In this document: positions 1 to 17,013 of the stretch, piece by piece
Layout: every line of letters starts with the position of its first letter
How positions within the stretch are numbered: position 1 is the first letter of the stretch
Assembly (NCBI GenBank): GCA_030950375.1
Contig: JAUZRN010000033.1
Coordinates: 1-64,000 of the forward strand
DNA from: Rhodothermus sp.
GTDB taxonomy: Bacteria; Bacteroidota; Rhodothermia; Rhodothermales; Rhodothermaceae
Reading direction: 5' to 3'
Length of the DNA stretch: 64,000 nt
Translations under genes and position numbers: made by a program
Notes under the pieces: generated by a model
Told to the model about the DNA's origin: nothing
Database searches by the model: none
The model's input: only the letters and a program-made list of their open reading frames with translations

Positions 1-1019
1 TGCATTTCCCGTTCCGAGGCTACCGTAATATCCGTATAGTTTTCGGATGCATGAAACGTCATGATCTCCTGCTCCACATAGGGATGCACCACATCCGTAT
101 CGATAATGTCTGTGAAGATAACCTCTGCTGTCCGTTTATTATCCGGCGTTGGCTGGATGTAGGTATCCCCGAAACGCATTTCCAGTCGGCTGTTGACCTG
201 CCACCCGATTCCGGCCACCACCACATCCGGTGCGCTGGGATCCAGATCCAGCACCACCCGCTCATCTGGATCCACCAGGGCCAGCGCCGCCTGTGCATCA
301 GCGACCGCTCCGGCATCATTCACCAGCGCGTTCACCTGCACATTCCCCGGGAAAATGAGGGCACGAAGCGCCCGGCTATATTTCGCCCGTGCCCGGAACA
401 TGAGCAACTGGCCCCGCAGATTATCATCGTTCAGGTCTTCGGCAATGGCAATGGCCTTGTCCAGGTAACCGATGGCCGTCGCATAAACCTGATCCAGGTT
501 TTCCCGACCAATCGGTGGGCCTGGCTCTTGCCGGTTGGAGAATGCAAAGTCATCAAACATATCCCCAATGACCACATAAATGATCGCGCCATAGAGATAG
601 GCTCGAGCCAGCGCCCGTCTATCTGTCAGCGCCCCTTCCTCCTGGAAGCTTTCCAGACGTTTGATTACCTCATCTGCCCACCACCGCGCTTCCGCCACAT
701 ATGGAAAGGCGGCGTCCGTGAACTCGTTAAAAGGATCGTCAATATTCCCAAAGTCCAGCTGTTGCCAGGCATCTCGCGATCCCACCCACACCAATTCATC
801 GGTTGCTGTAGAGTAAGGCGCCATCATTGCATAGACAGCGCGTGTCACCGCAGCTTCCACGCCATTGACCATAGGAACAACCGCTGCGGGATTCCCCAGA
901 TCTTCCTCAACCAGGTTGTTCGGGTTGTTGACATCCAGCAGATTACATCCTGTGAGCCCCAGACTCAGGATTAAACCAAGGGCCCACAACCCTGTCCGAA
1001 TTCCCTTATCGTAACGCAT
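1..1019 (-). CDS. SusD/RagB-family outer-membrane lipoprotein, 3' end outside window
   Basis: The first 339 codons of a SusD/RagB-type nutrient-binding lipoprotein are present; the C-terminal part lies beyond the left edge. The N-terminus has a hydrophobic signal ending in a lipobox (LGLTGC, Cys25), followed by NLLDVNNPNN, a typical SusD-like start. Later segments such as ALARAYLYGAIIYVVIGDMF and the stretch around RAKYSRALR resemble the helical TPR-like SusD core. SusD proteins sit on the cell surface and close over the SusC channel to capture substrate. The gene starts 19 bp after the stop of the SusC gene at 1039-4266, and GGAGAG precedes the ATG by about 6 nt, so the two form one operon. 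The substrate cannot be read from the sequence because no glycoside hydrolase or other enzyme is visible next to it. Confidence 0.9.
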   Translation of the reverse strand, partial: MRYDKGIRTGLWALGLILSLGLTGCNLLDVNNPNNLVEEDLGNPAAVVPMVNGVEAAVTRAVYAMMAPYSTATDELVWVGSRDAWQQLDFGNIDDPFNEFTDAAFPYVAEARWWADEVIKRLESFQEEGALTDRRALARAYLYGAIIYVVIGDMFDDFAFSNRQEPGPPIGRENLDQVYATAIGYLDKAIAIAEDLNDDNLRGQLLMFRARAKYSRALRALIFPGNVQVNALVNDAGAVADAQAALALVDPDERVVLDLDPSAPDVVVAGIGWQVNSRLEMRFGDTYIQPTPDNKRTAEVIFTDIIDTDVVHPYVEQEIMTFHASENYTDITVASEREM

Positions 1020-1038: not shown

Positions 1039-4000
1039 TTAGAAGCCAAACCGAACCGTGAAGGTTACGCGCCGCGGCAGTATGAAGCCAAAGGCATCTA
1101 CGCCATCAAGGTAGTTCTGCGAAAGCTGACTACCACTGCCGCGTCCCACTGCATTGACTTCAGGATCCGGCCCGTCGTAGCGCGTCCAGAGTGCCAGGTT
1201 ACGCACGCCCAGCGTGAACGAGAGCCGATCGATCCCCCAGAGTCGCTGAAGCTGCGAGCGCGGCACGTCATAGGTAAGGCTGAGCTCCCGCCAGCGCAGG
1301 AAATCGGCGGGTTTGATCGTGTTCAGACCACTGAATGGAGCCAGCGCCAGCAATTCGTTCAGCCAGCGCTCCAGCGCCCGCAGCCGTACCTGCGGATCAT
1401 TCTTAGGATTGCCGTTGGCATCTATCCCACCGGTCGCATAATCACGCACTACCTCCGCAGACCACGGCAGGTTACGGCCAATGACCGGGTTCGCCTGACG
1501 GAAGGCAAACGTCAGATTGTTAACGTAATAGTTACCGGCCTTGAACTCAAAGGCGGTATAGAGTCGGAAATTGCGCAGGAATCGAATCGTCGCTCCGAAA
1601 GATCCCTGCCAGTCTGGGGTGGGCTTCCCAAGGTAGTGATCCAGCAGATCCCCATCCCCATCTTCATCGGCCAGCAACACGAGGGCCAGCGACTGCGGCA
1701 TGCTAACCCGTCCATTGGCCGGATTAATCAAATCTTCCGGGGTCAACGTGGCCAGGTAAGCCAGCACCTCATCCCGCGTATCTGGCTGGCCATCCCCGTT
1801 GAAATCAACCGGCAAACGATTGGGATCCGTGGGCAAGAGCTTAGCGCCAAAGTGCGCACCCGGTGCGTATCCTTCAATCAGGAAATTACGATAGCGCGGG
1901 TAACTACCACCCACCTTGATGGGCGGCGCGCCACCCATGTCCGTCACCTGTTCCCACAGGTACGAAGCATTGGCAAATACATCGATCGATAGGTTTTCAC
2001 TGTTGTAGAGATTGCCTTTCAGGCCCAGCTCGACACCACGCGCCTTCAGCTCTCCGATGTTGGTCAACTGACGGGCCCGGAATCCTCCCGTGACCGGGAA
2101 CTGCTTGTCTACCAGGGCATCGCTCACAACACGGTCCCAGTACGTGGCTTCTAAGGCCATCCGGTCCTGCCACAATCCCAGCTCTACGCCCACTTCCCAT
2201 TCAGTAGAAATCTCCGGCTTCAACTTGGGATTCCCCAGGTTACCGGGCGCAATACCTGGCCCACTGACCGAAGACAGCGGCACATATGTGGTCAATGCGT
2301 CGAAAGCACCCGGCTGCAGCCCGGATTGTCCGATGGCCGCACGCAACCGCAGGGAAGAAATCGGTCCCAACGGACGCCAGAACGGCGCATCCGAAGGAAT
2401 GAAGCTGAGCGAAGCCTTGGGATAGAACACAGCGTCAAACTCCGAACCAAAAGCACTGTTGGCGTCCAGGCGTCCGCCCACCGTCAGGAACAGATAGTCA
2501 TTGAAGCCAATCTGCTCCTGCGCAAAGATACCCAGGTTCACCACCTCCAGGAACGACTCAAACACGGACTGCTCGGCCGCTCCACCCGTCACGTCAATTC
2601 CTGGACCGGGGAAGCGCCGTCCTTCGGCCGACGACTCAATACGTCGCGTAATGAACCCCTGCGTTCCAAGGATAAAGACAGACTCCAGCGAAGAGGTCAG
2701 CCGCGTACGATGGGTCATCTTGATGTCGGCCGTGATATCCAGCGTGTTGAGGTCATCGATACGCCGCACTCCCTCTGGATTGTAACCGCTGAACTTGTCA
2801 ATATTCCATCCGAAGGGAAAGACTTCGCGGCTGAACTGGTTGACGACATCGACGCCAAAGGTGGCGTCAAACATCAACGGCCGAGAAGGACGGTAGTTCA
2901 GATTGATACTGCCAAAGAAACGATCCACATCCTGGGAGTAGATCTGCTGCAACCCTTCGTTGACCGTCATGAAAGCCGGTGAGCCCGTCTGGTTGTTGAA
3001 CCGTACCAGCTCGGGCTTACTGAACATGGCCAGCGTAAAGGCCGCAAAGATATTGTTATTGTTGTTGGGCGTCTCGTAGTGGCGCCGTGTCAACCCCGTC
3101 GATACACCGATACGCAGTTTATCGCTCGGGAAGATATTGACAGTTGCCGTCGCCTGAGCAATTCGGTTAATATCGGCTGAAAGCGTACGCACACCCGGCG
3201 GATAGCGCCGTCCCGTCTTGCCGCCAAACGGTCCATCCTCATCGGCCCAGCGCAGATTCAGGAAATAGGTAACCCCCGGCGTCCCTCCGGAAACAGAAGC
3301 GGCATAAGATTGCAAATATCCTGTTTCAAACAGCTCATGAATAAAGTTTTCCTGCACCAGTTCGAAGGGCCGCACGCTCCGCCCGAGATACTTCGACATG
3401 GTATCTGCAACCGCCTGATTCCATGCAAATCCTGTATTTGCAGGATAAATTCGCGGATACCAGGCGGCTCCCTGCTCGATCCGAAAACTAAACCGTGGGG
3501 GTCCTACCGCTCCCCGCTTGGTAAAGATCTGAATGACCCCATTGGAGGCTTCTGTCCCATAAAGCGTCGCAGCAGCTGCCCCTTTCAGAATCTCAATGCG
3601 CTCAATAGCTTCCGGGTCCAGATCATCCAGGCGTGAGGGAGAGCCTCCGCCTCCCGTTCCTACAAAGCCACCAAAACCTCCGCCCCGGTTGATCCGGATA
3701 CCATCAATGTAAACGACCGGCTCATTACTCTGCGAAAGAGAAGCCGACCCTCGAATGCGAATACGCGCCCCTTCTCCCGTAAGACCTCCTGAGGGTAATA
3801 CAGCCACAGAAGGCTCGCGCGCCAGCAACATCTCTGAGAGATTCTGCACCGGCGCCAACTCCAGTTCCGCCGCATTGATAGTGGCAATGGTGTTCCCCAG
3901 GCGCTTGACTTCGACCGGCCCACCAGCACCCGTTACAACCACTTCCTGGAGGTTCAGGGCCGTCTGATACAGCGCAAAATCGACCGTAACCGTCGCCCCC

Positions 4001-4266
4001 TCTTCTACGGTAACCTGTCGTGTTTCTGTACGATATCCAATAAAGCTGGCTTCCAGTGTATACGTCCCTGCAGGAACGCGCTCAATCGTGTAGTTTCCGT
4101 CAATATCCGTAGCCGCACCTCGCAACAGCTCGCGAATCACCACATTGACACCCGGAATGGGATCCTGTGTGTCGGCGTCAACCACGCGCCCCTTGATCGT
4201 CCCCTGTGCCAGCACACTTCCAGGCAGTAGTAGCAGCCACAACCAGAGCACATGTTTTGCGCGCAT
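1039..4266 (-). CDS. SusC/RagA-family TonB-dependent outer-membrane receptor
   Basis: A 1075-residue outer-membrane transporter. A signal peptide (MRAKHVLWLWLLLLPGSVLA) is followed by a carboxypeptidase regulatory-like beta-sandwich (about residues 22-105, with GRVVDADTQDPIPGVNVV), the plug domain (about 110-250, with RIRIRGSASLS, VYIDGIRI and IEILKGAAAATLYG) and a long beta-barrel ending in VTFTVRFGF with terminal Phe. The YG-T-EASNGVI motif at the plug end is typical of SusC. It pairs with the SusD-like lipoprotein that follows and should energise uptake of a large organic substrate through TonB. GGGAGAGG lies a few bases before the ATG. A promoter and a three-copy 21-bp-phased repeat lie upstream (4313-4408). 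Confidence 0.93.
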   Translation of the reverse strand: MRAKHVLWLWLLLLPGSVLAQGTIKGRVVDADTQDPIPGVNVVIRELLRGAATDIDGNYTIERVPAGTYTLEASFIGYRTETRQVTVEEGATVTVDFALYQTALNLQEVVVTGAGGPVEVKRLGNTIATINAAELELAPVQNLSEMLLAREPSVAVLPSGGLTGEGARIRIRGSASLSQSNEPVVYIDGIRINRGGGFGGFVGTGGGGSPSRLDDLDPEAIERIEILKGAAAATLYGTEASNGVIQIFTKRGAVGPPRFSFRIEQGAAWYPRIYPANTGFAWNQAVADTMSKYLGRSVRPFELVQENFIHELFETGYLQSYAASVSGGTPGVTYFLNLRWADEDGPFGGKTGRRYPPGVRTLSADINRIAQATATVNIFPSDKLRIGVSTGLTRRHYETPNNNNNIFAAFTLAMFSKPELVRFNNQTGSPAFMTVNEGLQQIYSQDVDRFFGSINLNYRPSRPLMFDATFGVDVVNQFSREVFPFGWNIDKFSGYNPEGVRRIDDLNTLDITADIKMTHRTRLTSSLESVFILGTQGFITRRIESSAEGRRFPGPGIDVTGGAAEQSVFESFLEVVNLGIFAQEQIGFNDYLFLTVGGRLDANSAFGSEFDAVFYPKASLSFIPSDAPFWRPLGPISSLRLRAAIGQSGLQPGAFDALTTYVPLSSVSGPGIAPGNLGNPKLKPEISTEWEVGVELGLWQDRMALEATYWDRVVSDALVDKQFPVTGGFRARQLTNIGELKARGVELGLKGNLYNSENLSIDVFANASYLWEQVTDMGGAPPIKVGGSYPRYRNFLIEGYAPGAHFGAKLLPTDPNRLPVDFNGDGQPDTRDEVLAYLATLTPEDLINPANGRVSMPQSLALVLLADEDGDGDLLDHYLGKPTPDWQGSFGATIRFLRNFRLYTAFEFKAGNYYVNNLTFAFRQANPVIGRNLPWSAEVVRDYATGGIDANGNPKNDPQVRLRALERWLNELLALAPFSGLNTIKPADFLRWRELSLTYDVPRSQLQRLWGIDRLSFTLGVRNLALWTRYDGPDPEVNAVGRGSGSQLSQNYLDGVDAFGFILPRRVTFTVRFGF

Positions 4267-4312: not shown

Positions 4313-4345
4313 CGAAATTAGAACATTCTTTGCCATTACTTCAAG
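4313..4345 (-). promoter_or_regulatory. Candidate Bacteroidota-type promoter of the susC-susD operon
   Basis: Reading the minus strand, CTTG at 4345-4342 is followed after 21 nt by TAATTTCG at 4320-4313. This is close to the Bacteroidota -33/-7 consensus TTTG-N19-21-TAnnTTTG, with one mismatch in each element. The predicted start near 4306 gives a leader of about 40 nt before the susC ATG at 4266. Match by eye only. Confidence 0.45.
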
Positions 4346-4356
4346 ATTCCATGATA

Positions 4357-4408
4357 CTGAACGGTTGAAATAACGTGCTGAATGGTTCATAATCCTGGCT
4401 CAATGGTT
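4357..4408 (-). promoter_or_regulatory. Triple 21-bp-phased direct repeat, LytTR-type binding array
   Basis: Three 10-bp units lie exactly 21 bp apart: CTGAACGGTT at 4357, CTGAATGGTT at 4378 and CTCAATGGTT at 4399. On the minus strand they read AACCGTTCAG, AACCATTCAG and AACCATTGAG. LytTR-domain regulators are known to bind 9-bp direct repeats of the form [TA][AC][CA]GTTN[AG][TG] separated by 12-13 bp, that is one period of about 21 bp. ACCGTTCAG fits fully and the other two differ at one base. The array ends about 12 bp upstream of the -33 element of the susC promoter, a normal place for an activator. No LytTR protein is encoded in the window. Confidence 0.55.
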
Positions 4409-4840: not shown

Positions 4841-5734
4841 TCAACGTCCGACGATAAACGTATACTGCACCCGCGCATAGCTCCCAAAAACGCCCCGTCC
4901 CCCCGAGACATGTTCCAGAACAGCCGGGATCTCTCCAGGCGATAGGGTCGAGCCCCCGTGCTGTACAGACTGGGTTCGGATCAGGTCATACAGGTTGTCG
5001 TCCAGCGCGCTAATCGTCACGCGGTTGGGTCCGTAGAAGAGCACAGCCAGCCAGGGTAACCGTAGTCGGAGCGTCCCGTCAGGCATTTCCCTGTAGTTGG
5101 CCTCATTCAGAATAGGCGATCCACTTACGCGCAGCTCCTCGAGCGTAAAGGTGCTGTCTTCGTAGAGCGCGCGCCCCAGTGGGGTCAGATTCTCTTCGGT
5201 CGGCTCCAACGCCTCGGTGGTGATGATGTAGACGGCCTGGCGGCCGGGATACTCGCTACGGGTCATGAACAGTTCCAGGCGCACTTCGCTCTGATAGCGC
5301 ACGGAGTCAAGATTGGCGCCTAACACTCGAAAAGTGTCGGGTACTGTCGTTTCGGCCGTCAATAAGGTTCCGTCGGGCATTCGGGCCTCCAGCCGGTAGG
5401 TGCGCAACGGCCGCACGCGCACCCCTTGTACCAGAGGAACCGGCACATAGTAGCCGGGGGTGTCTGGATGCTCCGTATATGGATACCAGCGTTCGGGCAA
5501 GCCCTGCGCGTCTAACAGCGCAATGCGTACCTGCGCCCCGCGTACCCATACCGAGTCGGGCACATAGACTGCATCAAGCGGCATTGTCCGCGTCAGCCAT
5601 ACCGGCTGCAACGGCTCTCCCGCGATCTGGTACGACTCGACCACGTACTCCGGCGTGAATGAAACGGGTGCTACCTGATCGCAGGCAGCCCACCCGAACA
5701 TCCCAATCAGTATGCACCAGAAAACACGAGGCAT
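4841..5734 (-). CDS. DUF4249-family lipoprotein
   Basis: A 297-residue lipoprotein of the Bacteroidota DUF4249 type. The signal ends in a lipobox (FGWAAC, Cys18), followed by a beta-rich region with the family features VVESYQIAGEPLQPVWLTRT and TYRLEARMPDGTLLTAETTVP. Family members are typically encoded directly beside a TonB-dependent receptor with a carboxypeptidase-like N-terminal domain and are thought to be surface partners of it; their ligand is unknown. Here the gene starts 3 bp after the stop of such a receptor (5738-8005), so the two are clearly co-transcribed. Confidence 0.8.
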   Translation of the reverse strand: MPRVFWCILIGMFGWAACDQVAPVSFTPEYVVESYQIAGEPLQPVWLTRTMPLDAVYVPDSVWVRGAQVRIALLDAQGLPERWYPYTEHPDTPGYYVPVPLVQGVRVRPLRTYRLEARMPDGTLLTAETTVPDTFRVLGANLDSVRYQSEVRLELFMTRSEYPGRQAVYIITTEALEPTEENLTPLGRALYEDSTFTLEELRVSGSPILNEANYREMPDGTLRLRLPWLAVLFYGPNRVTISALDDNLYDLIRTQSVQHGGSTLSPGEIPAVLEHVSGGRGVFGSYARVQYTFIVGR

Positions 5735-5737
5735 AGC

Positions 5738-8005
5738 TCAAAACTGCAGGCTGAACGATAGGTTGGGTAACGGGATAGGAATCTGCGGTACTTCATTGCG
5801 CTTGACCTCTCCCTCGCGGTTAAACTCAAAGAAGTAGAACCACAGGTTACGTCGAGCATACGCGTTCAGCACCTGAAACTGCAGCGTATAGTCGGCCACG
5901 CCAAAAAAGCGGCCGTGACGCATCAGCCCTATGTCGAGCCGATGGTACGCCGGCAGGCGTGCATTGTTGTAGCCGGGTGTCAGAATTACGTTGCGTGTGT
6001 CGGCACCAAATGGATCCCGCGTGAGCCGATACCGACCCGACGGCTCCGTGTAGGCCTGTCCGGTGGCATAGGTAAAGACCGTTGAAAGTCGCCAATGACG
6101 TGACAGGTTAAAGCGGACCACCAGATTCAGGTCATGGGTGCGGTCGTACTTGGGAGGATAGAACTGTGGACGGCCGCGCTCGTCGAGGTTAACGCCCGGG
6201 AAGCGACGGCGCGTGCGGCTCCAGGTATAGCCCAGCAGTCCTGTCAACCGTCCTACGGAGCGTTGCAAAAGCACTTCCAGGCCATAGGCATACCCATCGC
6301 CTATCCGGAACAGGTCACGGTAAGCGAGTCCGGCCACGTTCGGTAGAAATGGATCAAATTCGAACAGCGCACGCATTGTACGGTAGTAGGCTTCTGTTTC
6401 TACATTGACGCCCGCCACCGGCTCCCATTTGGCGCCGATGACAAACTGGTCTCCCCAGGCCGGCTTTACCCCCTCGGCTACTGTCAACCAGACGTCAAAA
6501 GCGGTAATCAGCTCGCTGGAGATGAGCGTCAGATATTGATAATAGCGTCCATAACCAGCCTGCAAGCGCAGGTTAGCGCGCGGGCGGTACTCGATCGAAA
6601 GCCGCGGCTCCAGGCGCATATACCGTCCGCGCCCGAAATAGCTCAATCGGAGTCCTCCCTGTAACACCCAGAAGGCCGAAGGTCGAAACGTTTCCTGCAA
6701 GTAGAGCGCACCATAGAATGCATCAATGGAAGCCCGCATCCCCTCCTCCTCATCGAACCGATCCTGCAACCGAAAGCGAAACAGTCCACTCCAGTAGCCC
6801 AGTTTAAGGGTGTGCTTTTCGTCCGGAAAATACTCGAAGTCACCGCGCACCGACCAGTCTGTTACCGTGTTCCTGCGCTCAAAAGGTGTACCGGCCAGTT
6901 CGAAGGTTGGCAAACTGAAATAGTAAGAGCTGGTCAGCCGAAAACTCGCAAATACCCGTTCGGAAAACAGGTGCGTCCATCCGGCTGTAGCTGTGCGGTT
7001 ACCGTAAGTGACACGCAACTGGCTATCTGCCAGAAAAGGAAGCTGCAACACATCCTGCCCTGCATAAAAAGCCAGCGAGAACCGATCGTCGGCCGAGGCA
7101 TCAATATTCAATTTAGTGTTCAGATCATAAAAGTAAAACCGATCGGGCGCCCCCTCGACGTTTTGCCGACGCAGTACGGCCAGCAACGGTTCGATGGTTG
7201 AGCGTCGTACCGCGATCATCCAGGATCCCCACCGATAGGGGCCTTCCAGCATCAGCCGTGAAGCCAGCATGCCAATACTCAGTCGGCCATGCGTCTCATA
7301 GCGGTTGCCGTCTTTGTTATAGACGTCTAAAACTGATCCAAGACGGCCGCCATATTCTGCTGGATAGGCCCCTTTGTAGAGCCTGACGTCTTTGATGGCG
7401 TCAGGGTTGAAAGTGGAAAAAAAGCCAAAGACATGCGTTGGGTTATAGACGGTGGTGCCGTCCAGCAAAATCAGCGTCTGGTCCGGGCTTCCGCCGCGCA
7501 CATACAGTCCGCTCGAATAGTCGGAAGCGGCTTTGACCCCAGGCAGCAGTTGCAGCGTGCGGAATACGTCTGGCTCGAAAACGGCCGGCAGCTCCTGCAC
7601 CAGGCGGGTTTCCACCTGGGTGACGCCCAGGTTGCGGGCTTCCTCCAGTTCCCGTTCAGCGGTCACCACCACCTCGTCAGCCGTTAACGGCTCAGGCTCC
7701 AGTGCAATATCCAGCCGCCGGCTCTCACCGGGCTGAAGCGTCAAAGCGCGTTGAAAGAGGCGGTATCCGAGATATGACACGACCAAGGTATAGGTGCCAG
7801 GCGGAATTCCGGTCAGCGTAAAAAAGCCGGCCGCGTTCGTGGCCGTGCCATATGTCGTGCCCTTAAGCACGACGTTGGCCGAAATCAGCGACTCCCCCGT
7901 GGTAGCATCCCGAACGAACCCGCTGATCGTGGCCGGCTGCGCTCGACCTCCTACGGCCAACAGCAACCCACCGATCAGAACAAGCCAGCAGCCCCGCATG
8001 CCCAT
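5738..8005 (-). CDS. TonB-dependent receptor with carboxypeptidase-like N-terminal domain
   Basis: A 755-residue outer-membrane receptor. A signal peptide ending near GGRAQPA is followed by a carboxypeptidase regulatory-like domain (about residues 25-110, GFVRDATTGESLISANVVLKG), a plug (about 115-225, with SGLYVRGGSPDQTLILLDGTTV and VRLYKGAYPAEYGGRLGSVLDV) and a barrel ending in LSFSLQF. Plug motifs YVRGG, LLDG and YPAEYGGRLGSV are those of the receptor class linked to DUF4249 lipoproteins. The DUF4249 gene follows after 3 bp, and the phosphodiesterase gene ends 67 bp upstream in the same direction, so a three-gene operon is possible. Substrate unknown. Confidence 0.9.
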   Translation of the reverse strand: MGMRGCWLVLIGGLLLAVGGRAQPATISGFVRDATTGESLISANVVLKGTTYGTATNAAGFFTLTGIPPGTYTLVVSYLGYRLFQRALTLQPGESRRLDIALEPEPLTADEVVVTAERELEEARNLGVTQVETRLVQELPAVFEPDVFRTLQLLPGVKAASDYSSGLYVRGGSPDQTLILLDGTTVYNPTHVFGFFSTFNPDAIKDVRLYKGAYPAEYGGRLGSVLDVYNKDGNRYETHGRLSIGMLASRLMLEGPYRWGSWMIAVRRSTIEPLLAVLRRQNVEGAPDRFYFYDLNTKLNIDASADDRFSLAFYAGQDVLQLPFLADSQLRVTYGNRTATAGWTHLFSERVFASFRLTSSYYFSLPTFELAGTPFERRNTVTDWSVRGDFEYFPDEKHTLKLGYWSGLFRFRLQDRFDEEEGMRASIDAFYGALYLQETFRPSAFWVLQGGLRLSYFGRGRYMRLEPRLSIEYRPRANLRLQAGYGRYYQYLTLISSELITAFDVWLTVAEGVKPAWGDQFVIGAKWEPVAGVNVETEAYYRTMRALFEFDPFLPNVAGLAYRDLFRIGDGYAYGLEVLLQRSVGRLTGLLGYTWSRTRRRFPGVNLDERGRPQFYPPKYDRTHDLNLVVRFNLSRHWRLSTVFTYATGQAYTEPSGRYRLTRDPFGADTRNVILTPGYNNARLPAYHRLDIGLMRHGRFFGVADYTLQFQVLNAYARRNLWFYFFEFNREGEVKRNEVPQIPIPLPNLSFSLQF

Positions 8006-15798: not shown

Positions 15799-17013
15799 TT
15801 AATCTATCGCAGGAAGATCAGCCCCGAAAAGTCCTTCGGCAGCCAGTGTTTCAAGCTCTTCATCGGAGAATCCAGCTTCCTGCAACACCTGGCGGGTGTG
15901 AGCCCCTGGCGGAGGGCCCACATGCCGGTAGTCGGGAGAGGTCTTCGAGAACCGTACAGGAAAGCCTACCTGAGGCTGGGCTGGACCGTCTGATCGTGGA
16001 ACCGTGACTATCAACGCGCGCGCCTGCACCTGTGGATGTTGCGTCATTTCTTCCAGCGTCAGCACGGGCTCCACACACACGTCCTGTTCGGCGAAGATGG
16101 CCTGCCATTCGGCCAGGGTTCGGGTAGCGATCGCCTGCTGAATTTCCTTCTTGAGTCGTTGCTGGACGGCTGTATCCCAGACGTTGTAGCCGTACGGTGC
16201 CAGTTCAGGTCGACCGATGGCTTCACAGAAACCTTCCCAGAACTTGGGCTCCAGGCCGGCTACCGCCAGGTAGCGGCCATCGCGCGTGCGATAGCAGTCG
16301 TAGAAGCTACCCCCGTTCAGGGGTTCGGTCTCGTAACCTGGTAGATGGCCGGCGGCCAGGAAACCACTAACGGCCAGTCCATTGAAGGCGATGGCACAGT
16401 CGAGCAACGCCAGATCCAGGTACTGTCCTTCGCCGGTGCGCTGGCGGTGTACGACAGCAGCCAGGATGGCCAGGGCCGCAAACAATCCACCGGCCATGTC
16501 GGCCAGGGGCACGCCGGAGGGTATCGGTCCACTCTCCCGACGGCCACTGTGGCTCAGCAGTCCGGAAAGTGCCTGATAGTTCAGGTCGTGCCCGGCCCGT
16601 GCGCGATAGGGCCCGGTCTGGCCATAGCCGGTAATGGAGCAATAAATCAGCGCTGGATGCTCGGTGGCCAGCGTTTCGTAGTCCAGGCCCAGCCGCTGCA
16701 TGACGCCTGGCCGAAAGCCCTCCACCACGACGTCGTAGTGTCGCACGAGCCGACGGACCACGTTGGCCGCCGCAGGATGCTTCAGGTCGAGCGCTATTGA
16801 TCGTTTGGAACGGTGGACCCAGGCATGGCCAGCCGCGATTCCGGTATCGTCGTAAGGAGGCGCCAGGCGCATCAGATCAGGCCGGTCGGGTGATTCGATA
16901 CGCACCACTTCAGCCCCCAGGTCGGCCAGCAGCAACGTTGCGAAGGGGCCGGGTAGTAGCGTCGTGAAGTCCAGTACGCGCAGCGCGTGCAATGGTCCTG
17001 CCATTGCCTTCAC
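15799..17013 (-). CDS. CaiB/BaiF-family (type III) CoA transferase
   Basis: A 404-residue family III CoA transferase, or alpha-methylacyl-CoA racemase relative. HALRVLDFTTLLPGPFATLLLADLGAEVVRIE is the classic N-terminus; the catalytic Asp lies in VPLADMAGGLFAAL, and the C-terminus carries the usual VGFPVRFSKT and GAHTRQVLQEAGFS. It would move CoA between acids or epimerise 2-methylacyl-CoA. The start is GTG at 17013, overlapping the TetR stop as GTGA, so translation is coupled to the regulator; an ATG at 17004 is the alternative. Its place in the cluster fits a role in activating or recycling acyl-CoA of the pathway. Confidence 0.88.
   Translation of the reverse strand: MKAMAGPLHALRVLDFTTLLPGPFATLLLADLGAEVVRIESPDRPDLMRLAPPYDDTGIAAGHAWVHRSKRSIALDLKHPAAANVVRRLVRHYDVVVEGFRPGVMQRLGLDYETLATEHPALIYCSITGYGQTGPYRARAGHDLNYQALSGLLSHSGRRESGPIPSGVPLADMAGGLFAALAILAAVVHRQRTGEGQYLDLALLDCAIAFNGLAVSGFLAAGHLPGYETEPLNGGSFYDCYRTRDGRYLAVAGLEPKFWEGFCEAIGRPELAPYGYNVWDTAVQQRLKKEIQQAIATRTLAEWQAIFAEQDVCVEPVLTLEEMTQHPQVQARALIVTVPRSDGPAQPQVGFPVRFSKTSPDYRHVGPPPGAHTRQVLQEAGFSDEELETLAAEGLFGADLPAID

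Follow-up and report, generated by a model that had tools for sequence, protein, structure and literature searches.

A putative LytTR-type operator of three direct repeats upstream of a SusC/SusD operon recurs at outer-membrane receptor promoters of Rhodothermus

Most binding sites of LytTR response regulators consist of 9-11-nt repeats separated by 11-13-nt spacers (PMC4847170). The promoters controlled by HdrRM/BrsRM and their relatives carry 9-bp direct repeats arranged as ACCACTTAC-12 bp-ACCACTTAC approximately 10 bp ahead of the -35 element; these systems mostly have two repeats, act on their own regulator operon and on bacteriocin genes, and include a membrane inhibitor (PMC6193735). Operators with three direct repeats are known for the CO-sensing proteins RcoM and CoxC, which control cox genes and whose LytTR domain reads the unit TTCNNGCA with 12-13-bp spacers (PMC11347149). 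The YpdB regulator of Escherichia coli reads a direct repeat of units approximately 21 bp apart (PMC4847170, PMC5552118). YpdA/YpdB and BtsS/BtsR of E. coli are LytS/LytTR kinase-regulator pairs turning on a nutrient transporter, and in this they resemble the system proposed below, whereas they are Proteobacterial, use two sites and target inner-membrane transporters. The BtsR motif is reportedly ACC[GA]CT[CT]A, which is close to the Rhodothermus unit. Uptake through SusC/SusD is a hallmark of Bacteroidota. The operons encoding it are usually controlled by hybrid two-component systems, AraC-type proteins or ECF sigma/anti-sigma pairs, all of which are pictured as local regulators. In the open-access literature searched, outside which most subscription papers lie, nothing described SusC/SusD as being under LytTR control or linked LytTR with Rhodothermus.

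The window analyzed here is the whole stretch of 64,000 nucleotides, positions 1-64000 of contig C33 of the source genome (G000; 3.03 Mb, 99.6% complete), from the thermophilic genus Rhodothermus. Its first genes and the promoter ahead of them, all on the minus strand, are as follows.

1 to 1019, minus strand: SusD-family lipoprotein gene (PF07980), next after SusC and extending past the window edge; the assignment was taken from the 99%-identical locus L052.
1039 to 4266, minus strand: SusC/RagA-family TonB-dependent receptor gene, 1075 aa (TIGR04056, 424.8 bits, above cut-off).
4313 to 4320, minus strand: -7/-10-like element TAATTTCG (TAATTTTG in genome G006; TAAAAT in four other orthologs).
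4339 to 4344, minus strand: -33/-35-like element TTGAAG, 12 bp past the array; TTGAA is kept in orthologs.
4357 to 4365, minus strand: promoter-proximal LytTR-like unit ACCGTTCAG.
4366 to 4377, minus strand: 12-bp spacer between the middle and proximal units.
4378 to 4386, minus strand: middle LytTR-like unit ACCATTCAG.
4387 to 4398, minus strand: 12-bp spacer between the distal and middle units.
4399 to 4407, minus strand: distal LytTR-like unit ACCATTGAG; the unit letters are the same in G006 (L052).

The initial annotation had placed three units at 21-bp steps about 12 bp before a -33 element and upstream of a SusC/SusD operon. These coordinates were right. Read along the minus strand, which also encodes SusC, the array runs ACCATTGAG-N12-ACCATTCAG-N12-ACCGTTCAG with a step of exactly 21 bp. 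From 5' to 3', the array is followed by 12 bp, TTGAAG, TAATTTCG, and 46 bp to the SusC start codon at 4266, and SusD is the next gene. The TAATTTTG form of the downstream element in G006 fits the Bacteroidota-type TAnnTTTG. A second receptor operon (4841-8005, minus strand), consisting of a TonB receptor gene and a small lipoprotein-like gene, perhaps of DUF4249, lies immediately before the susCD operon that carries the array, and the scan detected no strong array belonging to it.

The units of the focal triple have the consensus ACC[AG]TT[CG]AG, and with 9-bp units and 12-bp spacers the array follows the LytTR repeat rule; its 12-bp distance to the -35 element agrees with the LytTR feature of approximately 10 bp. 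Compared with the broad LytTR consensus, [TA][AC][CA]GTTN[AG][TG], the three units matched at 8, 8, and 9 of 9 positions, and the closest published repeats were ACCACTTAC and ACCAGTTAT (PMC6193735). Every sequence-level LytTR feature tested was thus present in the focal array, save autoregulation. We consider it very probable that the array is the operator for a LytTR-domain response regulator and the activator site of susCD, belonging to a trans-acting regulon of one or both LytTR systems of the genome; operator binding, activation and cooperativity are what we infer. In the proposed mechanism, a LytS-type kinase would phosphorylate the LytTR regulator, three molecules of which would bind one face of the DNA two helical turns apart, and the phosphorylated regulators, positioned just ahead of the -33/-35 element, would help RNA polymerase begin susCD transcription.

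The focal triple is not a chance product. The window contained 7 occurrences of the pattern ACCRTTSAG, where 1.65 would be expected, and 0 of 100 shuffles reached 7. The focal array was the sole equally spaced triple of alike 10-mers within the window, any such triple being found in 2 of 200 first-order Markov windows. Throughout the 3.03-Mb genome, the only exact unit pairs 10-14 bp apart were the two overlapping 21-bp pairs of the focal array. To examine the spacing without site selection, we scanned the seven whole Rhodothermus genomes for pairs of CCRTTSA with a variable gap (start-to-start 11-41 bp). Pairs at 21 bp accounted for 24 of the 98 found, the other spacings averaging approximately 2.5 and the second commonest, 27 bp, having 10; these counts are non-independent, including orthologous sites, and the 21-bp pairs collapsed by eye to approximately 15 distinct sites, still far over the rest. 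Some pairs at this spacing are probably located within coding regions. An earlier spacing test on hand-picked stretches was dropped as biased, because the stretches had been chosen by their matches, and was replaced with the seven-genome scan; a table of triple spacings of the arrays carries the same selection bias. Loose 21-bp pairs in G000 with up to three mismatches looked largely like coding noise and were set aside.

Conservation in relatives, which the initial annotation had proposed to look for, was found for both spacing and units. In G006, whose SusC is 99% identical, the units were letter-for-letter the same as in the focal array. The arrays at the SusC orthologs of four further genomes were diverged, reading TCTGTTCAG/ACCATTCAG/ACAGTTTAT in G005, TCTGTCCAA/ACGGTTCAG/ACCAATCAG in G003, TCTGCTCAG/TCAGTTCGG/ACGGTTTAG in G004, and CCTGCTCAA/GCAGTTCGG/ACGGTTTAG in G002, and all four were in the same place as the focal array and in phase. 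Unit columns were more alike than spacer columns in 5 of 5 ortholog families (0.68-0.83 vs 0.42-0.67). Of 63 units compared, 62 had C at position 2, and all had a purine at positions 4 and 8. Because a weight matrix had been used in finding part of the arrays, ascertainment inflates this conservation somewhat. Short motifs do arise randomly, and many loose 21-bp pairs resemble coding sequence, but the rarity of such a triple in the Markov windows, the strong genus-wide excess at 21 bp, and the retention of units over spacers in orthologous promoters leave a negligible probability that the repeats are a functionless chance feature.

The array was not confined to the focal promoter. A search model built from 11 arrays, using sequence only, was run on the seven Rhodothermus genomes and gave 29 matches at E <= 0.05 (E-values are rough), each assigned to a gene by neighbourhood or by orthology to an inspected site. 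Sixteen of the 29 preceded SusC/TonB-receptor genes: six belonged to the C33 SusC and its orthologs, and ten to others (three in the C58 family, two at C15, two at C32, two in G001, and one in G002, the last, L227, lying approximately 600 bp upstream of the SusC start and retained in the counts). Six preceded an 84-aa gene (C59; six genomes), six a ~250-aa gene (C25; six genomes), and one a GWxTD-domain gene in G001. Four matches were neither training arrays nor their orthologs, namely those at C32 in G000 and G006, the G002 SusC gene, and the G001 GWxTD gene; weaker matches of this kind, at E > 0.1, were G005:C166 and G004:2919366. A gene for a FadL-type outer-membrane protein (C11) had a weak array with an E of 0.33. 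In G000, four of the six matches at E <= 0.02 preceded true SusC genes, and arrays stood at four of its eight true SusC genes (C33, C58, C15, and C32, of which C32 was weak and C15 reversed), none being found at the remaining four. Units were degenerate at some promoters, including those of C32 and FadL, and distal units were degenerate in general. The expectation of more unit arrays at 21 bp was borne out in degenerate form, mainly at SusC promoters; the initial annotation was substantially right and had seen one promoter of a regulon.

Some of these sites had features of their own. The reversed triple (G000:C15:39415-39465; L095/L125) is opposite to its SusC gene and is kept in G006, with TTGACT 11 bp off. 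The 84-aa protein (MEALVK...IVYRG; G000:C59, L132 ~16576-16981) has orthologs at L228 and L221, and the ~250-aa protein (MERSFAR...; G000:C25, L231) has orthologs at L232, L148, L153, L157, and L214; neither had a Pfam or NCBIfam match.

The position of the arrays relative to the promoter was also conserved. In 7 of 8 array families, TTG began 10-12 bp past the array. It was found at 10, 11 or 12 bp in 6 of 6 C33 promoters and 2 of 3 C58 promoters, and at 10-12 bp also in the ~250-aa-gene family, at both G001 receptors, at the FadL gene, and at the reversed C15 array; one C58 promoter (20 bp) and the C59 family departed from this distance. Four C33 orthologs had TTGAA, an 18-bp spacer, and then TAAAAT. 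The array-to-TTG distance corresponds to the layout of published LytTR activator promoters. A LytTR protein on the array might repress susCD instead of activating it, as CoxC is a LytTR repressor acting on three direct repeats that overlap the -35 box (PMC11347149). However, at almost all promoters the Rhodothermus arrays stop 10-12 bp short of the -35 element and do not overlap it, which is the layout of an activator, and repression is in our judgment quite unlikely. Activation by a LytTR regulator, as proposed above, also differs from the HdrRM/BrsRM systems in that the Rhodothermus array has three repeats and stands at SusC promoters, and the candidate regulators are paired with kinases and have no array at their own operons.

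Two response regulators with the LytTR domain (PF04397) scored above the cut-off in G000, and exactly two were present in each of the seven Rhodothermus genomes. They are of two kinds, each conserved across the genus and approximately 38% alike to each other. The gene on C9 of G000 follows a His_kinase-type kinase gene and is divergent from a gene for an outer-membrane beta-barrel receptor, and that on C19 is located after a PDZ/GAF/His_kinase gene and is followed by two genes named by sequence alone, one SpoIID-like and one receptor-like. A search for the array at either LytTR operon of G000 found none, and autoregulation was therefore not seen; autoregulation is common, not universal, in LytTR systems. 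The initial annotation had suggested looking for LytTR proteins near such arrays: the genome does encode two, but none lies beside the focal array, nor was a LytTR gene found beside the other array-bearing operons inspected. This indicated that a candidate regulator would act in trans.

The absence of an adjoining LytTR gene at the inspected operons, together with the fact that the unit by itself is no proof of a protein family, leaves room for a conserved operator of a non-LytTR protein that likewise recognizes direct repeats spaced by two helical turns, such as an unrecognised activator. AraC is the best-known other binder of direct repeats at 21-bp steps. However, no protein with HTH_18 (AraC-type, PF12833) was matched in the 99.6%-complete G000, whereas 9 of 14 control genomes were positive. 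On this basis we rejected AraC regulators, as well as hybrid two-component systems with HTH_18, as readers of the array. Moreover, the unit, the 12-bp spacer, and the 10-12-bp distance to -35 jointly match published LytTR promoters, and we regard a non-LytTR reader as unlikely. The target operon is of the same kind as that of the hybrid two-component, AraC, and ECF/anti-sigma systems of Bacteroidota. In contrast to those controllers, besides the lack of HTH_18, no regulator gene was seen adjoining the susCD operon, and a Pfam scan of the focal SusC gave CarbopepD_reg_2, Plug, and barrel domains with no STN (anti-sigma signalling) domain at the N-terminus. A LytTR-type operator, as the initial annotation had read the array, is thus supported by the spacing, the units, the -35 distance, the presence of the regulators, and the absence of AraC-type proteins.

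Several SusC genes, the GWxTD-domain gene and the two uncharacterised genes for the 84-aa and ~250-aa proteins would make up the predicted regulon, perhaps along with the FadL gene. One of the two LytTR two-component systems, or both, would control it in trans. Recurrence of the array before importers suggests that one of these systems may switch on outer-membrane nutrient uptake. One LytTR-like operator, read by a regulator acting in trans, would here serve several SusC genes of a genome that has no AraC-type protein, and if true, such global LytTR wiring of SusC/SusD would be a mode of control of which we found no description. Since there are only two candidate regulators and each has its kinase, this prediction can be tested directly; the kinase signal, if found, would tell what the cell senses when opening its outer-membrane intake.

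Outside Rhodothermus, the array signal is weak. The model gave 13 matches at E <= 0.1 in 53 other Rhodothermales genomes against approximately 5 expected. No array stood out in a search of distant SusC orthologs (52-63% identity) of Roseithermus and others, including the 63%-identical Roseithermus SusC, and two sampled relatives with no LytTR gene (G020 and G029) had no model match at E <= 0.1. A pair, ACGGTTCAT/ACCATTCAC, was present ahead of a SusC-like gene in G034 (L241). In three genomes of one Rhodothermales genus (L234, L235, and L236; ~1400-1550, minus strand), a conserved intergenic pair, ACCATTCA[AC]-N12-ACCAATTAT, is followed by a conserved segment of approximately 95 nt. The segment contains a stem-loop and GGAGGAGG, as well as a hairpin and T run resembling a terminator. 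There was no ORF longer than 44 aa near this segment and no Rfam match, and the segment is a candidate LytTR-controlled small RNA. We tentatively entertain the broader idea that one conserved LytTR system is a master activator of much uptake (SusC/SusD, TonB receptors, and FadL) and that in related Rhodothermales the array also drives a small RNA. In G022 (L246 ~1501-1549, minus strand), a clean triple, ACCCTTCAA-N12-ACCATTCAG-N12-ACCATTGAT, was located ahead of a membrane histidine-kinase gene.
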